Source: a virus. Taken from it: DNA of 25,688 nt. Below, one piece after another: positions 4,429 through 25,688 of this stretch. Positions within the stretch are counted from its first letter, which is position 1, and each line of letters begins with the position of its first letter. The stretch spans positions 1-25,688 of IMG/VR virus record IMGVR_UViG_3300030380_000161; one strand, written 5' to 3'. The position numbers were made by a program, and so were the translations under genes. A model generated the notes under the pieces. That model saw only the letters and a program-made list of their open reading frames with translations, did no database searches and was not told where the DNA came from.

Positions 4429-4850
4429 TACTGATACTCCCCTGTGCGGATCATCTCAGTCACCTCGACGGCACGGTTGCCAACCTGTTGACTCCAACGC
4501 GAGTCCATGAACTCATCTGCTGCAATATCAAACTGTTCACGAGACATCGCCTCTAAAGCGTTAACAAATCCTCGCAATCGTGTAAGGCCAAGGTTGAAAC
4601 AGATGTCAATCATTGCATCTTGTCGCGCTTCGTTGAGCGCAGGGAACCAGAAGTATGCGTCCGTAAGCTCTTGCTTAACACGAGTTATGTCATTTATCAG
4701 CAAGAAGTCTATTTCGTCTTCGGTCAGCCCAAGACCGGATTCGCTGATATTGCGCCCAACACCCAAAGTTTCATAACCAGCGGAGCATAGGTACACATGA
4801 CTACGCACACCCTCGTGACGCTTCAACATTTCAATTAGTTCATTAGCCAT
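4428..4850 (-). CDS. Endolysin, T4-type lysozyme (GH24) with Cys at the Asp20 position
   Basis: The 140-residue protein aligns with T4 lysozyme: LKRHEGVRSHVYLCSAGYET (9-28) followed by LGVGRN. The catalytic Glu is E13 (T4 E11), and T28 matches T4 T26. The T4 Asp20 position is Cys22 and the T4 His31 position is Arg33. The C-terminus (SRWSQQVGNRAVEVTEMIRT) matches the helix that closes the active-site cleft. Family knowledge: T4 lysozyme with Asp20 changed to Cys keeps activity, and E-C-T variants of phage GH24 are known, so the protein is probably functional. There is no signal peptide, so release depends on the holin. It starts in a TAATG overlap. Confidence 0.9.
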   Translation of the reverse strand: MANELIEMLKRHEGVRSHVYLCSAGYETLGVGRNISESGLGLTEDEIDFLLINDITRVKQELTDAYFWFPALNEARQDAMIDICFNLGLTRLRGFVNALEAMSREQFDIAADEFMDSRWSQQVGNRAVEVTEMIRTGEYQ

Positions 4851-5233
4851 TACTTCTCCCTGCTCACGCCTTGGGTCTTCTCGTAGCTTCTCATAGCACC
4901 CAGACCTAACATTCCGGTCATTGTGGTCATCAGCAACGATGGGTCTATCTCAGGGACTTCTACCCAAATACCTGCGATGGGTGCAATTAACACATGATAC
5001 AGAAGACCCAGACTACAGCACCAACCGATGCTAGGACGCCACCCGGCAACGAATAACGACTTATGTGCAGCCTCTACCTTGTTGACTTCTAGCTGCCCCT
5101 TGGCAAGTTCCGTGGCATGGCGCTCTGCAAGAGTGCTCAACTCAAAGGCGATACGATTCTTTTCGTCTTTGTCCTCAATTACTTTGTCTAGTAGCTGAGT
5201 AGCTGGGCCTATGATTGATCCGAGTATGCTCAT
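4850..5233 (-). CDS. Holin, GTA 3TM holin family
   Basis: ATG 5233 is preferred (TAATG overlap, GGTGG upstream); GTG 5242 would add three residues. The 127-residue product has a hydrophobic amphipathic N-terminus (MSILGSIIGPATQLL) and a charged helix (20-56). GWRP at 64-67 opens a membrane helix to about 90, and a second one at about 99-115 is followed by MRSYEK (114-119). FVAGWRP ... GMLGLGAMRSYEK is the signature I know from the gene-transfer-agent type 3TM holins. Holins permeabilise the inner membrane so that the lysozyme can reach peptidoglycan. It directly precedes the lysozyme gene. Confidence 0.88.
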   Translation of the reverse strand: MSILGSIIGPATQLLDKVIEDKDEKNRIAFELSTLAERHATELAKGQLEVNKVEAAHKSLFVAGWRPSIGWCCSLGLLYHVLIAPIAGIWVEVPEIDPSLLMTTMTGMLGLGAMRSYEKTQGVSREK

Positions 5234-5364
5234 TACGCCCACCCGCTATATCGGGCAAAACACTTGCCGCAAAGAAGTTTTACTTTCAAATGTACAAAAT
5301 CCATCACCGCTCCCGGCTTTTTGCAGCCAGCACAGCGCAATGTAACCCGTCTTTCATCGCTCAC
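5233..5364 (-). CDS. 43-residue zinc-ribbon protein (Com-like)
   Basis: A GTG at 5364 overlaps the previous stop (GTGA), and the TAA at 5233-5235 overlaps the holin ATG (TAATG), so the gene fills the gap exactly. The product reads VSDERRVTLRCAGCKKPGAV, then MDFVHLKVKLLCGKCFARYS and GWA. Two CxxC pairs (C11/C14 and C32/C35), 17 residues apart, are the pattern of a small zinc ribbon. Spacing and size resemble Mu Com, a zinc-finger translational activator, although that likeness is from memory. AAGGG stands three bases before GTG. Possible roles are RNA or DNA binding to tune expression of the lysis genes. Confidence 0.75.
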   Translation of the reverse strand: MSDERRVTLRCAGCKKPGAVMDFVHLKVKLLCGKCFARYSGWA

Positions 5365-5684
5365 CGACCCTTCGCCATATACGCTGTCGCGCCAAAGTAT
5401 AGCCCTACAATGCTTGCCTGACTAAGAAACAGCATGTCGCTTAGAGAAGCCATAGTGGACAGACGGGACTCAGGGATAAATGGCATAAGTGGTAAAACAG
5501 CGTAAACGACCATACTAGAAAGACTAACCCAAGCCATTCGGCGTTGACTATCTGCTTTCTCTTCACGCAGTTCGATCTCAACGAGTTCTTGATTTCGCGC
5601 CAATTCTTCATCGCTCACGACCCCATCTCCATCTAGGTCGTACTGAGCATACCGTGATTTAGGCTCTAATTTCTTAGGACTCAT
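5361..5684 (-). CDS. EF-hand membrane protein, holin-like
   Basis: The 107-residue product carries a canonical 12-residue EF-hand loop at 16-27 (DLDGDGVVSDEE; D at 1, 3 and 5, G at 6, hydrophobic at 8, E at 12), then a charged helix (28-48). Two membrane helices follow at about 50-70 and 84-103. A single EF-hand fused to two membrane segments next to a holin gene suggests a calcium-sensing or calcium-stabilised membrane protein of the lysis region. The loop is read directly; calcium binding and holin activity are inference. It starts in a TAATG overlap and its stop overlaps the GTG of the next small gene (GTGA). Confidence 0.78.
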   Translation of the reverse strand: MSPKKLEPKSRYAQYDLDGDGVVSDEELARNQELVEIELREEKADSQRRMAWVSLSSMVVYAVLPLMPFIPESRLSTMASLSDMLFLSQASIVGLYFGATAYMAKGR

Positions 5685-10967: not shown

Positions 10968-11735
10968 TTAAGCTACCTCTTCCCATTCGGGGGTTTGACT
11001 GTCTGAAACTGCAGACCACCCCGGCGTCTGACTGTCCGTAATACTACTCCAATTTGGGGTTTGGTCATCATCTACAGGACCCCAAACTAAAACCTGTTCT
11101 GTAAAGCCCGTAGCTTGGACCCCACTTGGCGTGGCAATCGTTGAACCAATCGCCGTAACCGTACCCACTGCGCCCGTGCCGCTGACCCCACTCGGAGACG
11201 CGACGATGCCCACTGCAATTGTAACCGTTCCGACAGATCCGGTAGCAGAAACACCAGTAACGGCGGCAGCCGCATTGCCGGATACAGTAACCGTTCCGAC
11301 AGAACCTGTGCCACTGACTCCAGTGACCGAGAAAGTGACGCCCGTGCCCTCGACAATAGTGACGGAGCCGACCGCTCCCGTCGAAGAAACGCCTGTGACA
11401 GAGACGTTTGCGTCTCCGGTGACTGAAACCGAACCAACACTACCTGTGCCTGCGACACCAGTGACAGAAACGTTCGCATCTGCTGATACCGTGACCGAAC
11501 CGACCGAACCGGTGCCAGCCACGCCTGTAACAGAAACGTTCGCATCTGCTGATACCGTGACTGACCCAACGGCCCCTGTGCCTGCGACGCCGGTGACTGT
11601 GACATTAGCATCTCCAGTAACTGTGACGGTGCCTACAGCGCCCGTAGCAGAAACGCCCGTCACCTCTACGGGTATGGGCTCGCTCCACGCGCCTTGGCCC
11701 CAAGTGCCTCTGCCCCAACCCGTTACATTTGCCAT
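10968..11735 (-). CDS. Tandem VTGV-repeat structural protein
   Basis: The 255-residue product has an N-terminal Trp/Gly motif (GWGRGTWGQGAW, 6-17). It then has eight units of 22 residues (one of 24) from 25 to 202, each VTGVxxTGxVGxVTV plus a variable tail, the last starting PSGV. A short ninth start and three Gln-Thr-Pro-Trp units ([DTS]DxQTPxW, 222-251) follow. Regular Val/Thr/Gly periodicity suggests stacked beta strands, as in a fibre shaft or filament. It lies directly before the large fibre gene and ends one base before it, so a fibre-associated role is likely. A similar GAWGAGGWG motif occurs in the gp10-like protein. Confidence 0.75.
   Translation of the reverse strand: MANVTGWGRGTWGQGAWSEPIPVEVTGVSATGAVGTVTVTGDANVTVTGVAGTGAVGSVTVSADANVSVTGVAGTGSVGSVTVSADANVSVTGVAGTGSVGSVSVTGDANVSVTGVSSTGAVGSVTIVEGTGVTFSVTGVSGTGSVGTVTVSGNAAAAVTGVSATGSVGTVTIAVGIVASPSGVSGTGAVGTVTAIGSTIATPSGVQATGFTEQVLVWGPVDDDQTPNWSSITDSQTPGWSAVSDSQTPEWEEVA
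11130..11663 (-). repeat. 66-nt coding tandem repeats (8 units)
   Basis: Eight consecutive 66-base units (one of 72) encode the VTGV repeats. Units around 11459-11590 are nearly identical at the DNA level, while the outer units have diverged. High identity of the inner copies indicates recent duplication or homogenisation by recombination. The opposite strand also stays open here because of the repeat periodicity. Confidence 0.85.
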
Positions 11736-16061: not shown

Positions 16062-16465
16062 TAGTCGAAGCCTTTTCTCATATACAAGATCACGGTGTAC
16101 GTGTCGGCTGAACTGGCACCCACGGTAGTAAACTTAATGTCCCCAGTTTTGCCAGACCCGGCGTTATTGGTGAGGCCACCGAAGCTACTGTAGTCGTGAT
16201 CTCCGCTTTGGTTCTCACCAAGTTCGATGATAAAAGCGTCTGAGGTTGCATCAAATAACAACTGCACTTTCATGCCTATGCATTGCCACCAAATACGGTC
16301 GATAGTGACACTCGTGCAAGTGTCACCATCCGCGCTAGTTTGCAAAGCTGACACGTCCACTTTTGTGACCGCAGATTCACCTGTACCGTCTGAAATGTTG
16401 GTTAATTTCAAAACAGCAAATTTAGGACCATCGACCAAAGTTTGCGATGTTACTGCATCAGCCAT
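16061..16465 (-). CDS. Conserved beta-rich hypothetical structural protein
   Basis: The 134-residue protein has strands of Thr/Val/Ile-rich sequence, a central IDRIWWQCIGMKVQLLFD segment (about 55-72), and a C-terminus DTYTVILYMRKGFD, which suggests a jelly-roll or similar beta-sandwich. There is no signal peptide. AGGAG is eight bases before ATG 16465. Its stop overlaps the next start as TAATG. The position among virion genes suggests a minor head or vertex protein. This is inference; I have no experimentally characterised relative in mind. Confidence 0.68.
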   Translation of the reverse strand: MADAVTSQTLVDGPKFAVLKLTNISDGTGESAVTKVDVSALQTSADGDTCTSVTIDRIWWQCIGMKVQLLFDATSDAFIIELGENQSGDHDYSSFGGLTNNAGSGKTGDIKFTTVGASSADTYTVILYMRKGFD

Positions 16466-20112: not shown

Positions 20113-20559
20113 CTAACCGTGATAAATGTCTTTCGGGTCTAAAATCGTGCCCAACACCTCGTCATCGTTCAGCATGCGAACTTCGCTGCCAAAAGCAGCT
20201 TTTTTATCGCCGTTGAGACGGAAACGAGATCCAGCGTATCGGGCAAAAATCACCCAATCGCCTTCTTTGCACCATTCCCCTGTCGGGTAACGCTCTTTGT
20301 CTTTGTACGCGAGCGGCCCAGCTTTCAACACGTAACCGACCTGAGTCTGTATTACGTCTTCTTCTAGGGTTTTTGGAGCAAGCAAAATACCGCCATCACT
20401 CTTTTCGGGTGGGCGGAAAGGCATGATTAAAATACGCCAACCTGTTGGTTGTGGTAGGCGTTCGATAAGTTCTTTATCCATTAGGGACGGGTCTAAAACC
20501 CGTTTTTCTTCTGCGACGTAGCACTCAGACACATCTAGTGCTTCATTCGAATCAGGCAT
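20113..20559 (-). CDS. GroES-like co-chaperonin (T4 gp31 analogue)
   Basis: This 148-residue protein aligns with the Cpn10/GroES fold after an extra N-terminal extension of about 35 residues. The beta-barrel opening (GWRILIMPF, 40-48) is followed by a mobile-loop candidate at about 52-71 containing GGILL (56-60), matching the GGIVL contact with GroEL. KEGDWVIFARYAG (98-110) matches the GroES GDIVIF strand, and NDDEVLGTI (131-139) matches the last strand. Family knowledge: T4 gp31 and similar phage co-chaperonins replace GroES on host GroEL to fold capsid protein. Its place between portal and scaffold genes suggests this role here. The ATG at 20559 has AGGA upstream and overlaps the previous gene by eight bases. 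Confidence 0.85.
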   Translation of the reverse strand: MPDSNEALDVSECYVAEEKRVLDPSLMDKELIERLPQPTGWRILIMPFRPPEKSDGGILLAPKTLEEDVIQTQVGYVLKAGPLAYKDKERYPTGEWCKEGDWVIFARYAGSRFRLNGDKKAAFGSEVRMLNDDEVLGTILDPKDIYHG

Positions 20560-20798: not shown

Positions 20799-21002
20799 TT
20801 ATGCGATTGTAAAGCGTCCACCACGAAGGGCAGCGCCCATCCCACGCTTTTTACCGCGTGTAATTTTGGCTGTCATAGTGTTAGGGGTAGCCTCTTCGGT
20901 AGCCACAGCGTATGGAATACTGCCTTGGCCTTCGATTTCTGCCTTCGCAACAGGCGTTGGCGGCTCTTTTGGCTTTACGCCATTGACTTTGACTGTTCTC
21001 AT
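20799..21002 (-). CDS. Small basic hypothetical protein
   Basis: This 67-residue protein starts at an ATG overlapping the portal stop (ATGA), which indicates coupled translation. It has a Pro/Glu-containing N-terminal half and a basic Gly-rich tail (TRGKKRGMGAALRGGRF). No family is recognised. The overlap with the portal gene and lack of any other gene on this segment support it as real. The GMGAALRGG tail is similar in flavour to tails of small structural proteins in marine phages, but function is unknown. Confidence 0.65.
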   Translation of the reverse strand: MRTVKVNGVKPKEPPTPVAKAEIEGQGSIPYAVATEEATPNTMTAKITRGKKRGMGAALRGGRFTIA

Positions 21003-23437
21003 GCGTCACCTCTCTGTTTCAATAGTTCCCGTTCGATACCCGCTTGGATGCGAGCTTGCGTTTGGGCCTCTTGGCTTGCCAGCCTTTGCTGGAAGTTTGC
21101 TTCACGTTGCGCAAGTTTCTCACGCTCCAGTTGCAGCTTGGCCTGCTCCTCCGCAACATCGTTCTGTTCTTGCTGGGCCTTGAGTTGCAGTTCTTGCTCT
21201 TTCAAAGCAATCAATGGATCAGGTCCCGCCTGCTCCTGCGGTTGTCCCGCCTGCTGAATCTGTTGACCTAATTGAACGACCTGCTGCATGCCCTGTGCCA
21301 CAAACTGCGCCACCATCGATTGATATGGCGCATTGTTCGACGGATCTGCTAGAGCAACGTTTGGATTCTGCTGTGCAAAAGCAGCTTCGGCCTGTTCTTC
21401 CGCCATCAACTGGATGTGGTTCAATATGTGCTTCTGTATCGCAAGCACTACCTGCGGCAACGTAGCAGCCACACCGCCCGTTACAAACAAAAGGTGGGCC
21501 TGTATGTGGGCCATATGGTCTTGGCCCTTAAACGCCTCTAGAGACACGTTCTCGAGCGCGTCCATATTCTCCTGCGCAGGGTCTTTCGGACGCATTTCGT
21601 CCGAAACTTCAGCATTCAAAATTTGGTCTACGTTTTTGACACCCATAGCGTCATAAACCCGACGATATACCTGCGGCATGTTGTGGATCTGCGGCGCTTG
21701 CATAGCCATTTGTAGCTCTGTTTGAGCTAAAGCGATTCGCTGGCTTTGCGAAAAGATGTTTGGGTCAGAAACGGGTAATACGTCTACACGTTCATCGAAA
21801 TCTCTTGCTTTGACCGCCTGATCTGCCCCCGCAACGGCGTACGGGTACACATTAGGTAGGCTTTCGTTCATTACACGCGCCAAAATCCTAAATTCCACCT
21901 TCATAGCGTAGTGAAGGCGTTTATGGATCGCGCTCATCACGCGGGCACCTTGCTCAATCATAGCAATCGTCGTGCCAACTGCGGCAGATTGGTTGCCATC
22001 GCCTATCTTCATATCGGTAATCGTGGCAAAACGTTGAGCGGCTTGAACTACAAAGCCCAAAAGCTGAAATAACGTGCCGTCAGGGCCTTTGAAAGGCAAA
22101 GGCATCAAAGAATCGCGTATTTGACCACCCGGAGCGTCTACATCTCTGAATTCACCCGGTTGTAAAGGATCTTCGTCGTCTCTGATCCTCAAACCACGGG
22201 CTTTGAAGCCCGCAGGCAGGTTAGAAAGCGTTCCTGCGTCGATTAATTGACGTAAAGCTGCTGTCGCAGTACGAGAAAGGCCACCAATCGTGTGAATCAG
22301 CCCCATTCCGTAAAAACCGAAGCCGGGCAAAAACTTATAATGGACAAAATACTGAATTTTTGACGTCAAAGGGTCGTCTTCGCGGTAATTTCGTCGGATT
22401 GCCAACACTTTTCCGTTGTCTTCACTGATCGTAACGACATACGGCACCTTGATTCCGGTCATTTCGCCGTTTTCGTCCGTATCTTCGTACCCCTCGAGGT
22501 CTAAATCGACGTGGCATTCCAACAAAGTGCAATCATAGTCGACCCCAGAGGCCCGAGTGCCGTCAATATAGTCTATTTCGTCGCTGACACTGGTCGAATC
22601 TGGCTGCGAAGGCAGTACTTTGATGTCTCGATAGAAGCCACTGACCTGTTGTTTACGCAAATCGTTCAAAGACATGCGAACGACGTGCGTAATGTTCGGA
22701 CATGTCTCCAGATCGTTGCTCTCATACGGCACCACAAGGTGTTCTGCCGGTATAAATTTACAAACTGGCCGCCCTAAAGCGTCATCGAAGTACACTTTTT
22801 TGAACGTAGAGCCCGCCAAGGGCAAATAGAACAGCATTTGGTCGAACTCTGGCGTGTATTCCTCCATCACATTGGTGATGTAGTAGTTCATAAAGTCTTG
22901 AACACGCTTGGCTTGATCCATCTTGTCCGTGGTCTGTGAGCCAAGGACCGTGGTTCGTACTGGGCCGTCCGCAGGCAAAAGCTCATTGAACGCTTGCGCT
23001 TGGAACTGAACCGCCGCTTCTGCCAAAAGGGGATGCGTTACGCCAGTAGCGCCCCGGAAAGGCTCCGTACGCTCTTCGTAATTAAAGCCCAAAAGCTCAA
23101 GGCCCTTGGAATAAGCGTCTTCCCAATCTTGTCGTGACGCACGGTTCGCGCTGTACTGCTCCATAAGCTCGTTAGAAACTTGAGCAAGCACCGAATCAGG
23201 CAAAAACTCCGCAAGATTGTCGTAAAAATCATCTTCTCGTTCACGGTTGCGGAACGGATCAAAGTCCAAAGTCGCACCGCCATCGTCTTCTTGAACGATT
23301 TCGATGCCTTCAATCTCTACGTTTGTAAGTAGATCGCCCGGTAGGGCTTCTACCTCGACGGCCTGCAAGTCTTCGATGTCAAGATCCAGCCCTTGACGAT
23401 CCATCAACGAAACAGGTGGGGTATCACCATTTGCCAT
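20999..23437 (-). CDS. Portal protein, P22-like podovirus type
   Basis: This 812-residue protein resembles the large P22-type portal proteins of marine podovirus-like phages. The portal ring sits at one capsid vertex, where DNA enters and leaves and where the tail joins. The N-terminal 60 residues are acidic. The segment at about 95-160 (NRASRQDWEDAYSKGL, then EPFRGATGVTHPLLAEA and ELLPADGP) is the part I recognise as the portal signature. The centre contains the expected stem/clip-like region. The C-terminal 125 residues are Gln/Glu-rich, with a coiled coil at about 740-805 that probably corresponds to the barrel helix. ATG at 23437 follows the previous stop by two bases. The stop overlaps the next start as ATGA. 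Confidence 0.88.
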   Translation of the reverse strand: MANGDTPPVSLMDRQGLDLDIEDLQAVEVEALPGDLLTNVEIEGIEIVQEDDGGATLDFDPFRNREREDDFYDNLAEFLPDSVLAQVSNELMEQYSANRASRQDWEDAYSKGLELLGFNYEERTEPFRGATGVTHPLLAEAAVQFQAQAFNELLPADGPVRTTVLGSQTTDKMDQAKRVQDFMNYYITNVMEEYTPEFDQMLFYLPLAGSTFKKVYFDDALGRPVCKFIPAEHLVVPYESNDLETCPNITHVVRMSLNDLRKQQVSGFYRDIKVLPSQPDSTSVSDEIDYIDGTRASGVDYDCTLLECHVDLDLEGYEDTDENGEMTGIKVPYVVTISEDNGKVLAIRRNYREDDPLTSKIQYFVHYKFLPGFGFYGMGLIHTIGGLSRTATAALRQLIDAGTLSNLPAGFKARGLRIRDDEDPLQPGEFRDVDAPGGQIRDSLMPLPFKGPDGTLFQLLGFVVQAAQRFATITDMKIGDGNQSAAVGTTIAMIEQGARVMSAIHKRLHYAMKVEFRILARVMNESLPNVYPYAVAGADQAVKARDFDERVDVLPVSDPNIFSQSQRIALAQTELQMAMQAPQIHNMPQVYRRVYDAMGVKNVDQILNAEVSDEMRPKDPAQENMDALENVSLEAFKGQDHMAHIQAHLLFVTGGVAATLPQVVLAIQKHILNHIQLMAEEQAEAAFAQQNPNVALADPSNNAPYQSMVAQFVAQGMQQVVQLGQQIQQAGQPQEQAGPDPLIALKEQELQLKAQQEQNDVAEEQAKLQLEREKLAQREANFQQRLASQEAQTQARIQAGIERELLKQRGDA

Positions 23438-23439
23438 AT

Positions 23440-25688
23440 TTAAGCTCCAAAGCTTCCAATGCCTCGATTCAAGCCTACCTCACCGCCGTATCGCATACCA
23501 CCTGTGATATCGATGACCTCTGGTGGCACCTGTCGTTTTTTACCGGGGCCGCCACCGCCGACTAAGTTACATATTGGATTTCCGTTCTCGAAAGAAAGCA
23601 CGTATCCATTGGGACATTGGTACATCTCGTTGGATTCTAAACCAAATGTTCCGGGGGCCGTGCCCTGTACGCCGGTATTCACAATACCAGAATCAGGACC
23701 CGGTGCCGCTGATCCGGCAGTAAATGCATCTGTGTTTACGCCGCTTGTGACGTCGCGCGTTCTGAACAACGACGGCATTGATTGTTGAGCCACCGGCTTG
23801 TAGATAGGCATTGTGTAACCCGTTGCACGCTCTTCTTCCGTGCCTTCAAAAGGCATGTAGGTGCGTTTGATTTCCATGCCCTGACTGCTGGGGTATCCGC
23901 TGGTGTACGAAGATATTTGATCCCCCACGTCGAGATCGACTTTCCCGAGTAACGATTGTATGCCTGCAAAGTTCTGGGCGCTCTCTTGCGCTCGTTGTTG
24001 TGCTTGTTGCTTGGCAGCAAGTTGTTGTTCGTACGCAGCGGCAGCAGCAGGCGTAGGATGTAGAGTGCCGTCGCTTGCTTCTGTGATCACCGCAGGCGTC
24101 TGGTTTTGCTGCATCGGATCTTGTTGTGCCGGTGCAGTGGTCGCCGGGTCTGCTGTCGTGGTCGTGGTCGTGACGGGGTCAACAACCTGACCATACATGC
24201 TGCGGTCAATCGCGGTTCCGGTTTGAGACGGTGTTGTAAACAAGTCTCCTGTGGCAGCCTGTGCTGTTTCAGCAGCCTGTAAAAGTTCACCTTGCGTCGG
24301 TGCGTCGTAGATCGGATCGGGGTCAGGAGTAGCCGCAAGTTGCGCTTCCATCGCTAGACGATCTGCTTCCTGTTGGGCTGCAAGTTGTTCTGCGCGTTGT
24401 AACTGGGCTGCCGCTTCTTGATCGGCTGCCATTTGTGCAGCCTGTTGAGCAGCTAGTTGCTCTGCGGCTAACTGGGCAGCAGCGATACGCTCTGCTTCTG
24501 CGGCAGCAAGAGCCTCTTGTTCTGCGGCAAGAGCCGCTGCTTCTTCAGCGGCTTGTCTTTGCGCCAAAGCTTCGAGAGCGGCTTGCTCATCTGCAAGAGC
24601 TTGTGCGGCGAACGCGTCGGCGGCAGCTTGCTCTGCTGCGATCCGTTGAGCTTCTTCTTCTGCCAAGCGGATACGCTCGGCCTCTTCCGCTGCTTGTTGA
24701 GCAGCTAACGTTTCTGCAGCAAGCCTTTGTGCTTCTTCTGCGGCAGCCTGTTCTTGAGCAATACGAGCAGCTTCTTGCTGGGCAAGTAGCTCTGCTGCTG
24801 CTTGTTCGTTTGCTATTCGAATAGCTTCTTGCTCGGCTGCAACACGGTCTGCTTCTTCTTGTGCAATTCGTAAACGCTCTGCCTCTTCAGCAGCGGCAAG
24901 ATCTCTAGCCGCCTGCTCTGCTGCAAGCACTTCCGCTGCGGTAGGACCCGCTTGGACGGGGTCTGTTTCAGCAGGCGGTAAATAAACAGGCCCTGTCGGT
25001 TGTGTAGACACCGGGGTGGTGTTTACCGGAGTTGTCTGGACGGGCGTCGTTTGAACTGGGGTCGTTTGAACTGGGGTGCTGTCTACCGGCGTCGTCTGGA
25101 CGGGTGTCGTGTCTACTGGGGCGGTGTCCACTGGAGCAGTGTCAACCGGCGTCGTATCCACCGTTGTAACGCCCCCACCCAACATACCCGGCTCGTCCGG
25201 TGTTTGTCCGGGGGCCGTGACAAGTTGGCTAGTGTCAAACGGTGTTGTTGCAGGACCGGTGGGCGATATCAAAACATCGCTGCCTTCCTGTAGATACATA
25301 CCCGGCGTAAACGTTTGATCAGGAGACGTGCCATAAATGGTTTGCTCTGGCAGACCCTCTGGGTTTTGGAATGCCGCCGCCTGTTCCAGTGCCCTTTGTT
25401 GGGCTATTAAATCTTGTGTCGTAGGCATCGCTGGCGCTGCAGCAGGGGTTGCTTGTGCTGCCTGCTGTGCTGCGAGAGCCTCCGCAGCTTGAGCAGGAAG
25501 TGCGTAAGCGGGTAGCGCAGATGGGTCAACCTGCACATTTGAAAAATCAAGCTCTGGCACAAAACGGCCCATGCCACCCCCACGGAACATGCCAACAGGT
25601 TCTTGTGTTTCACGTGAAACACGAGCTAAGGGCCCCTGTGTGTAACCACGCAATAGGCCCGAGAGCCCTGATGAAATAACCGGCTTTC
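23440..25688 (-). CDS. TolA-like Ala/Gln/Glu-rich coiled-coil protein, 5' partial
   Basis: The frame is open to the window edge. The first recognisable start is a TTG at 25653, but codons upstream continue in frame (reading KPVISSGLSGLL), so the true start lies outside the window. From TTG the protein is 737 residues. It has an Ala/Gln-rich N-terminal part, then about eleven 5-residue repeats of the V-[DQNS]-T-[TA]-P type, then roughly 200 residues of Ala/Glu/Gln/Arg heptad-like repeats (AAEEAERI, QAAEEAQRLA) typical of a long helical stalk as in TolA. A less repetitive C-terminal part ends in a Gly-rich tail with RYGGEVGLNRG. The portal gene starts 3 bases after its stop. Position beside the portal suggests a virion or packaging-associated structural protein, but no enzymatic domain is visible. 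The parS-like site lies in its N-terminal codons. Confidence 0.8.
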   Translation of the reverse strand, partial: KPVISSGLSGLLRGYTQGPLARVSRETQEPVGMFRGGGMGRFVPELDFSNVQVDPSALPAYALPAQAAEALAAQQAAQATPAAAPAMPTTQDLIAQQRALEQAAAFQNPEGLPEQTIYGTSPDQTFTPGMYLQEGSDVLISPTGPATTPFDTSQLVTAPGQTPDEPGMLGGGVTTVDTTPVDTAPVDTAPVDTTPVQTTPVDSTPVQTTPVQTTPVQTTPVNTTPVSTQPTGPVYLPPAETDPVQAGPTAAEVLAAEQAARDLAAAEEAERLRIAQEEADRVAAEQEAIRIANEQAAAELLAQQEAARIAQEQAAAEEAQRLAAETLAAQQAAEEAERIRLAEEEAQRIAAEQAAADAFAAQALADEQAALEALAQRQAAEEAAALAAEQEALAAAEAERIAAAQLAAEQLAAQQAAQMAADQEAAAQLQRAEQLAAQQEADRLAMEAQLAATPDPDPIYDAPTQGELLQAAETAQAATGDLFTTPSQTGTAIDRSMYGQVVDPVTTTTTTADPATTAPAQQDPMQQNQTPAVITEASDGTLHPTPAAAAAYEQQLAAKQQAQQRAQESAQNFAGIQSLLGKVDLDVGDQISSYTSGYPSSQGMEIKRTYMPFEGTEEERATGYTMPIYKPVAQQSMPSLFRTRDVTSGVNTDAFTAGSAAPGPDSGIVNTGVQGTAPGTFGLESNEMYQCPNGYVLSFENGNPICNLVGGGGPGKKRQVPPEVIDITGGMRYGGEVGLNRGIGSFGA
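24998..25165 (-). repeat. 15-nt coding tandem repeat (VxTTP)
   Basis: About eleven imperfect copies of a 15-base unit encode VDTTP, VDTAP, VQTTP, VDSTP, VNTTP and VSTQP in tandem. The run forms a Thr/Pro-rich linker between the N-terminal region and the coiled-coil stalk of the first gene. Pro/Thr linkers of this kind are usually extended and flexible. Boundaries are accurate to a few codons. Confidence 0.8.
25605..25622. promoter_or_regulatory. parS-like: parS-like ParB-binding palindrome
   Basis: GTGTTTCACGTGAAACAC is a perfect 18-bp palindrome. Its inner 16 bases, 25606-25621, equal TGTTTCACGTGAAACA, the consensus centromere site parS bound by chromosomal ParB proteins across bacteria. 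It lies inside the coiled-coil protein gene and encodes V-S-R-E-T there. The sequence match is seen directly; that ParB binds here is inference. No parA or parB gene is in the window and no second copy was noticed. Confidence 0.7.

Follow-up and report, generated by a model that had tools for sequence, protein, structure and literature searches.

A chromosomal-type parS core conserved as DNA within a phage gene, a likely loading site for host ParB

Introduction

Once loaded at parS and closed with CTP, ParB spreads in the form of a sliding clamp, which activates ParA (PMC12704722), and SMC recruitment also takes place at parS (PMC10197239). The chromosomal parS consensus has been stated as TGTTNCACGTGAAACA (PMC7022226), and the parS2/parS3 form of P. 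aeruginosa is TGTTCCACGTGGAACA (PMC4368675). Test plasmids of the chromosomal par operon have shown that Par proteins can position and stabilise a foreign replicon with a single parS (PMC7022226). In phages, partition sites had been known from those that persist as plasmids and bring their own ParAB. P1 parABS is a plasmid-prophage partition system. Systems of this kind have also been described for extrachromosomal mycobacterial prophages (PMC7157519). In an engineered setting, lambda-parS with CFP-ParB, ParB supplied by the cell loads on the injected genome and forms a focus while lytic growth continues (PMC13190303).

Here we describe a conserved host-type parS in phages in which no par genes were found, one of them cultured and obligately lytic. 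No prior report of such sites was found in the literature searched, which left most subscription papers and all bioRxiv preprints uncovered, and parS and ParB are unmentioned in two papers checked on the HTVC023P-type phage group. The search began post hoc, from a single site in the window, by which we mean the entire IMG/VR record IMGVR_UViG_3300030380_000161 (25,688 bp) of a marine bacterial virus, a genome fragment whose end truncates the site-bearing gene.

Results

A parS site in a gene upstream of the portal

The window contains a 16-bp parS, TGTTTCACGTGAAACA, at 25606-25621, an exact match to the consensus (as in PMC7383237), enclosed by an 18-bp perfect palindrome at 25605-25622 with flanks g...c. 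The unit conserved as DNA is the 14-bp core GTTTCACGTGAAAC at 25607-25620, and the outermost palindrome pair (25605/25622) is not conserved in the wider family; none of these features is assigned a strand. At up to three mismatches TGTTTCACGTGAAACA is the sole match in the window, with 0.16 expected from shuffles. The site is in frame on the minus strand, where gct cgT GTT TCA CGT GAA ACA caa is translated as A-R-V-S-R-E-T-Q. A preliminary description had claimed the exact consensus, the palindrome, the in-frame V-S-R-E-T and, for equal base use, a chance expectation of 0.000006 for one 16-mer (25,688 / 4^16), and all of these held; its designation of the gene as structural did not hold as a fact, being a guess, since a structural role is not shown.

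The coding frame with the site (23440-25686, minus strand) is cut at its 5' end by the contig end and lies upstream of the portal protein gene (20999-23437, minus strand; phrog_1216). In the relative L191 the gene is full-length, encodes about 1,951 aa between the terminase and the portal, and has the site near residue 1,185. An ART-PolyVal domain is found in the L199 homologue of the protein, and we therefore label the product as a large protein of apparently polyvalent type, whose gene belongs to the head module. Along the protein (window 23440-25653, minus strand), a tract of TTPVDTTPVQ-type repeats is followed by a long coiled-coil-like stretch rich in Ala, Glu and Gln. The gene is a mosaic immediately upstream of the site (window 25623-25686 and the relatives L123, L124 and L141): relatives have a GLSGLLRGYTQGPLAR block in common but differ in which of several alternative modules they have upstream, suggestive of a recombination joint at this place. 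Elsewhere, at 10968-11735, a protein of VTGVSGTGSVGTVTVS-type repeats adjoins a 1,077-aa tail-fibre-like protein.

Portal, GroES and scaffold genes homologous to those of the HTVC023P-type phages occur in the window in the same order, which places it in this group; the GroES-type co-chaperonin that marks the group is at 20113-20559 (minus strand). The portal is 56-58% identical to those of the cultured members over 75-78% of its length, so the window phage is related to these members but in a separate clade. A scan of GTDB genomes with the portal or primase family found no relative, so the host of the window phage is unidentified.

The core is conserved at the nucleotide level

First searches of relatives gave 34 loci with the site-bearing gene and 79 with the portal, and the site or a close variant was present in those loci that covered the region. 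An earlier filter that required the site was biased and was replaced by an anchor independent of it, consisting of the peptide patterns V[ILM]S[RSP]GLS[GNS]L[IL] and [NGS]Y[ST][QST]GPLA[RK], neither of which touches the site. GTTYCACGTGRAAC was present in 39/39 distinct homologous sequences collected with this anchor. The core is encoded by GTT (39/39), TCA or CCA, CGT (39/39) and GAA or GGA, followed by a Thr codon, ACA, ACG or ACC, whose third base is beyond the core, and all 16 codons that precede the core vary synonymously. Synonymous change was taken as codon minus amino-acid parsimony; on the tree from the upstream flank the four core codons show no such change, the 16 flank codons average 5.4 each, and the Thr codon has 7 at its third position, immediately outside the core. 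A Poisson estimate for zero changes in four codons is about 5e-10. The portal gene served as an internal control: on the portal tree (27 distinct loci) it has a mean of 3.6 synonymous changes per codon and not one of its 297 four-codon windows is free of synonymous change, and the core is again at zero on this tree.

Amino-acid replacements do occur at core codons 2 and 4, three times (S/P) and ten times (E/G), respectively, and in every case the base concerned is position 5 or 12 of the 16-mer. The combinations of these two positions in the 39 homologues are T..A (17), C..G (13) and C..A (9), with no T..G. Both positions are changed in L130-L132, where the site reads TGTTCCACGTGGAACA and encodes V-P-R-G-T, so that the palindrome is kept and the protein altered; L130 and others thereby have the exact P. 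aeruginosa form. The S/P and E/G replacements are confined to two core positions that are also variable among known parS sites. L199, which does not fit the anchor and is outside the 39, has one change within the core. When half-site palindromes were permuted over 36 family loci, the mean was 0.04 matches and the maximum 8, against 36 observed, one per locus. A larger composite site was considered and rejected, since conservation ends at the 14-bp core. The change counts rest on small trees and ignore recombination, which may lower the number of independent lineages. The data show that the 14-bp core is conserved at the nucleotide level, independently of the protein.

The core in other places and without partition partners

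The core is also found elsewhere in related phages. In the complete, cultured Pelagibacter phage HTVC027P, whose portal is 56% identical, it is intergenic, at 16,413-16,426; this phage is described as obligately lytic, and its latent period is about 18 h (PMC12753301). In L008 it is not in the gene upstream of the portal but within the scaffold gene (4612-5532; NVSRET ahead of a PQPQ tract), which is of the same kind as that of the window (phrog_28737). One core in three different places of the phage group (the gene upstream of the portal, the scaffold gene and an intergenic spot) argues for a genome-level function in cis and not for regulation of one gene. Each record of the window family has one core. 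The core is absent from HTVC023P, 023Pt_psg01, DSL-LC04, CRP-901/902 and Caulobacter phage RW, and from other cultured relatives of the proteins examined (Hodr, CKB-S2, Rollin, RHph_TM27A, Pkon1, POR1, 45A6 and others). Among more distant relatives, L200 (7991), L212 (8712) and L213 (13661) have parS-like palindromes with 1-2 mismatches just past the major capsid gene, possibly decayed or alternative sites.

No match to ParB_N, HTH_ParB or AAA_31 was obtained in 34 related records, of which some are complete genomes, including a 42-kb relative and the complete HTVC027P, and no match to Phage_integrase (tyrosine integrase) in 29 window-family records; control genomes matched in each of the ParB, ParA and integrase searches. 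The phage-encoded ParABS systems, for which a phage would have its own ParB and its own ParA, are thus not represented on either count in these 34 records, with the window genome being incomplete. The largest record of the same clade is 42 kb and may be incomplete, whereas cultured relatives are mostly 51-65 kb, and a distant ParB-like gene is therefore not fully excluded; divergent ParB can also escape HMM searches.

A second phage family and wider occurrence

A phage primase-helicase family (L360-L439), unrelated to that of the window, was analysed in the same way with site-independent patterns. The core is at one codon place in 42/80 loci, encoded as [PA]VSRETW, and across the 29 distinct carriers it has no synonymous change, being the sole zero window among 394 four-codon windows. 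The tree has about nine gains or losses of the core, and non-carriers have free codon use at its place. Single sites are present in the large carriers (62 and 65 kb), and neither ParB_N nor integrase was matched in the primase-family records, these carriers included.

The exact 16-mer occurs in no fewer than 120 IMG/VR stretches, compared with 1 for its letters read in reverse, and the C..G form is likewise present in at least 120; both counts are lower bounds, the reversed control is the only one at the scale of the collection, and some parS-bearing contigs may include host DNA. In-frame sites are found in unrelated phage genes, namely terminase, head-tail adaptor, head assembly/scaffold, primase and tail fibre. 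ParB_N was matched in 4/50 other parS-bearing viral records tested and in none of the remaining 46/50. Clusters of five exact parS sites occur in two viral contigs, L044 (10535-11462, at and beside a terminase-like frame) and L017 (2657-3444), and ParB_N was not found in either of these short contigs. L043 (6704-6779) has two parS sites in in-frame 20-residue repeats (NVSRETSFNFSSIGTNTTNQ).

Discussion

Several explanations of the site can be weighed against these data. The site could be a coding coincidence, in which V-S-R-E-T is maintained for the sake of the protein and the DNA sequence is a by-product; the constant frame of the site in the gene and the conserved peptide GPLAR..V[SP]R[EG]T are in its favour. 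The synonymous test refutes it and leaves it all but excluded, since four codons have no synonymous change, yet all 16 preceding codons vary, and the amino acids change where the third bases do not; the same pattern is seen in the unrelated primase, and in related phages the core is in other genes or between genes. The preliminary description had proposed this synonymous test in homologues, and the site passed it, with the DNA kept even where the protein changes. The palindrome could instead serve another dimeric regulator of host or phage, an RNA hairpin or recombination, as its perfect symmetry and its position beside the mosaic boundary with alternative upstream modules would allow. We consider this very unlikely, as all 14 bases including the centre are kept, the permitted variants are only those of known parS, and the site recurs in unrelated phages in different gene contexts; as for a hairpin, folding is no better than that of shuffles (z 0.09, -0.93 and -0.59) and C/A mismatches at positions 5/12 are frequent (9/39).

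The site could also serve a ParB-like protein encoded by the phage beyond the fragment. The window is indeed a fragment, and a minority of other parS-bearing viral records do match ParB_N (4/50), but the 42-kb relative and the complete, core-carrying HTVC027P have no match to any of the three domains and the 62-65 kb primase-family records with the core none to ParB_N, and this explanation is also very unlikely. Thus, of the options in the preliminary description, a phage-encoded ParB is disfavoured, coding coincidence is rejected and recruitment of host ParB remains the best reading, with binding inferred; the search for parA/parB and for more parS copies that it suggested gave no par genes in the 34 related records and one site per record in the window family. 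A ParB decoy, in which phage copies made by replication tie up ParB and upset segregation of the host chromosome, is possible and is part of the preferred explanation more than a rival to it, as it involves the same binding for another purpose. Each phage copy would be one more high-affinity loading site, if the inferred binding holds, and some other viral contigs have several close sites (L017 and L044), but multiplied sites would be expected of a decoy and there is exactly one per record in the window family.

The most probable explanation is that the window site is a functional parS of the chromosomal type, kept by selection on the DNA and loading host ParB, although binding is inferred and there are no binding data. 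It rests on conservation of the core independent of the protein, a single copy per genome, the lack of partner parA/parB in the available records, and recurrence in unrelated phages and different genomic places. Host ParB would load at the phage site in the infected cell as a CTP-gated sliding clamp and spread over the phage DNA, and host ParA and/or SMC would then treat the phage genome as an additional origin region. Since cell-supplied ParB loads on injected lambda-parS, only a small further inference leads to host ParB loading on the phage genomes described here.

The benefit to the phage is less certain. Our first choice, which we hold at slightly below even odds, is that the phage DNA is positioned, condensed and inherited jointly over the course of a long infection in a host that grows slowly; the single site and the long infection of the cultured member speak for it. 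Diversion of ParB from the host origin as phage copies accumulate is possible and ranks second, and a coat of ParB, which might influence phage transcription or shield the DNA, is also possible and ranks third; positioning and titration cannot be told apart from sequence. A bolder reading, towards which we incline by a small margin when it is taken as one claim, is that many unrelated virulent phages independently evolved a single host-type parS, often within the codons of the gene at hand, and that the host ParB-CTP clamp with ParA/SMC would act on phage DNA, as a general and previously unrecognised form of host exploitation.

The chromosome segregation machinery may then be a common and simple target of phages, for which 14 bases are enough. 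The parS reading explains an odd synonymous constraint inside phage genes, and a phage parS may give a hint of the host through ParB specificity. One silent mutant would allow a direct test of the question of where in the cell phage DNA is kept, and in what manner.

As regards membership of the chromosomal parS sites, the window site has the 16-bp consensus, with accepted variants in its family, and is conserved as DNA and not as a coding by-product, but it is not near a bacterial replication origin, being located in a phage head-module gene. The site very probably works like parS without being a chromosomal one, with ParB binding, CTP-dependent loading and spreading all inferred. It resembles chromosomal parS (ParABS) in being the exact 16-bp consensus and in permitting only known forms as variants (PMC4368675; PMC7022226), and differs in being on a phage genome, inside a coding gene and single, away from any bacterial replication origin and without parA/parB. 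The plasmid-prophage partition systems are alike in that phage DNA bears a centromere site for a ParB, but those phages encode partition proteins of their own with private sites and persist as plasmids, whereas in the window family the site is that of the host consensus, with neither par genes nor integrase found in its records. The par-operon test plasmids differ in being laboratory constructs that carry the par operon with the site, and are not viruses. Lambda-parS imaging used an artificial site and an artificial ParB, whereas the site of the window phage is natural.
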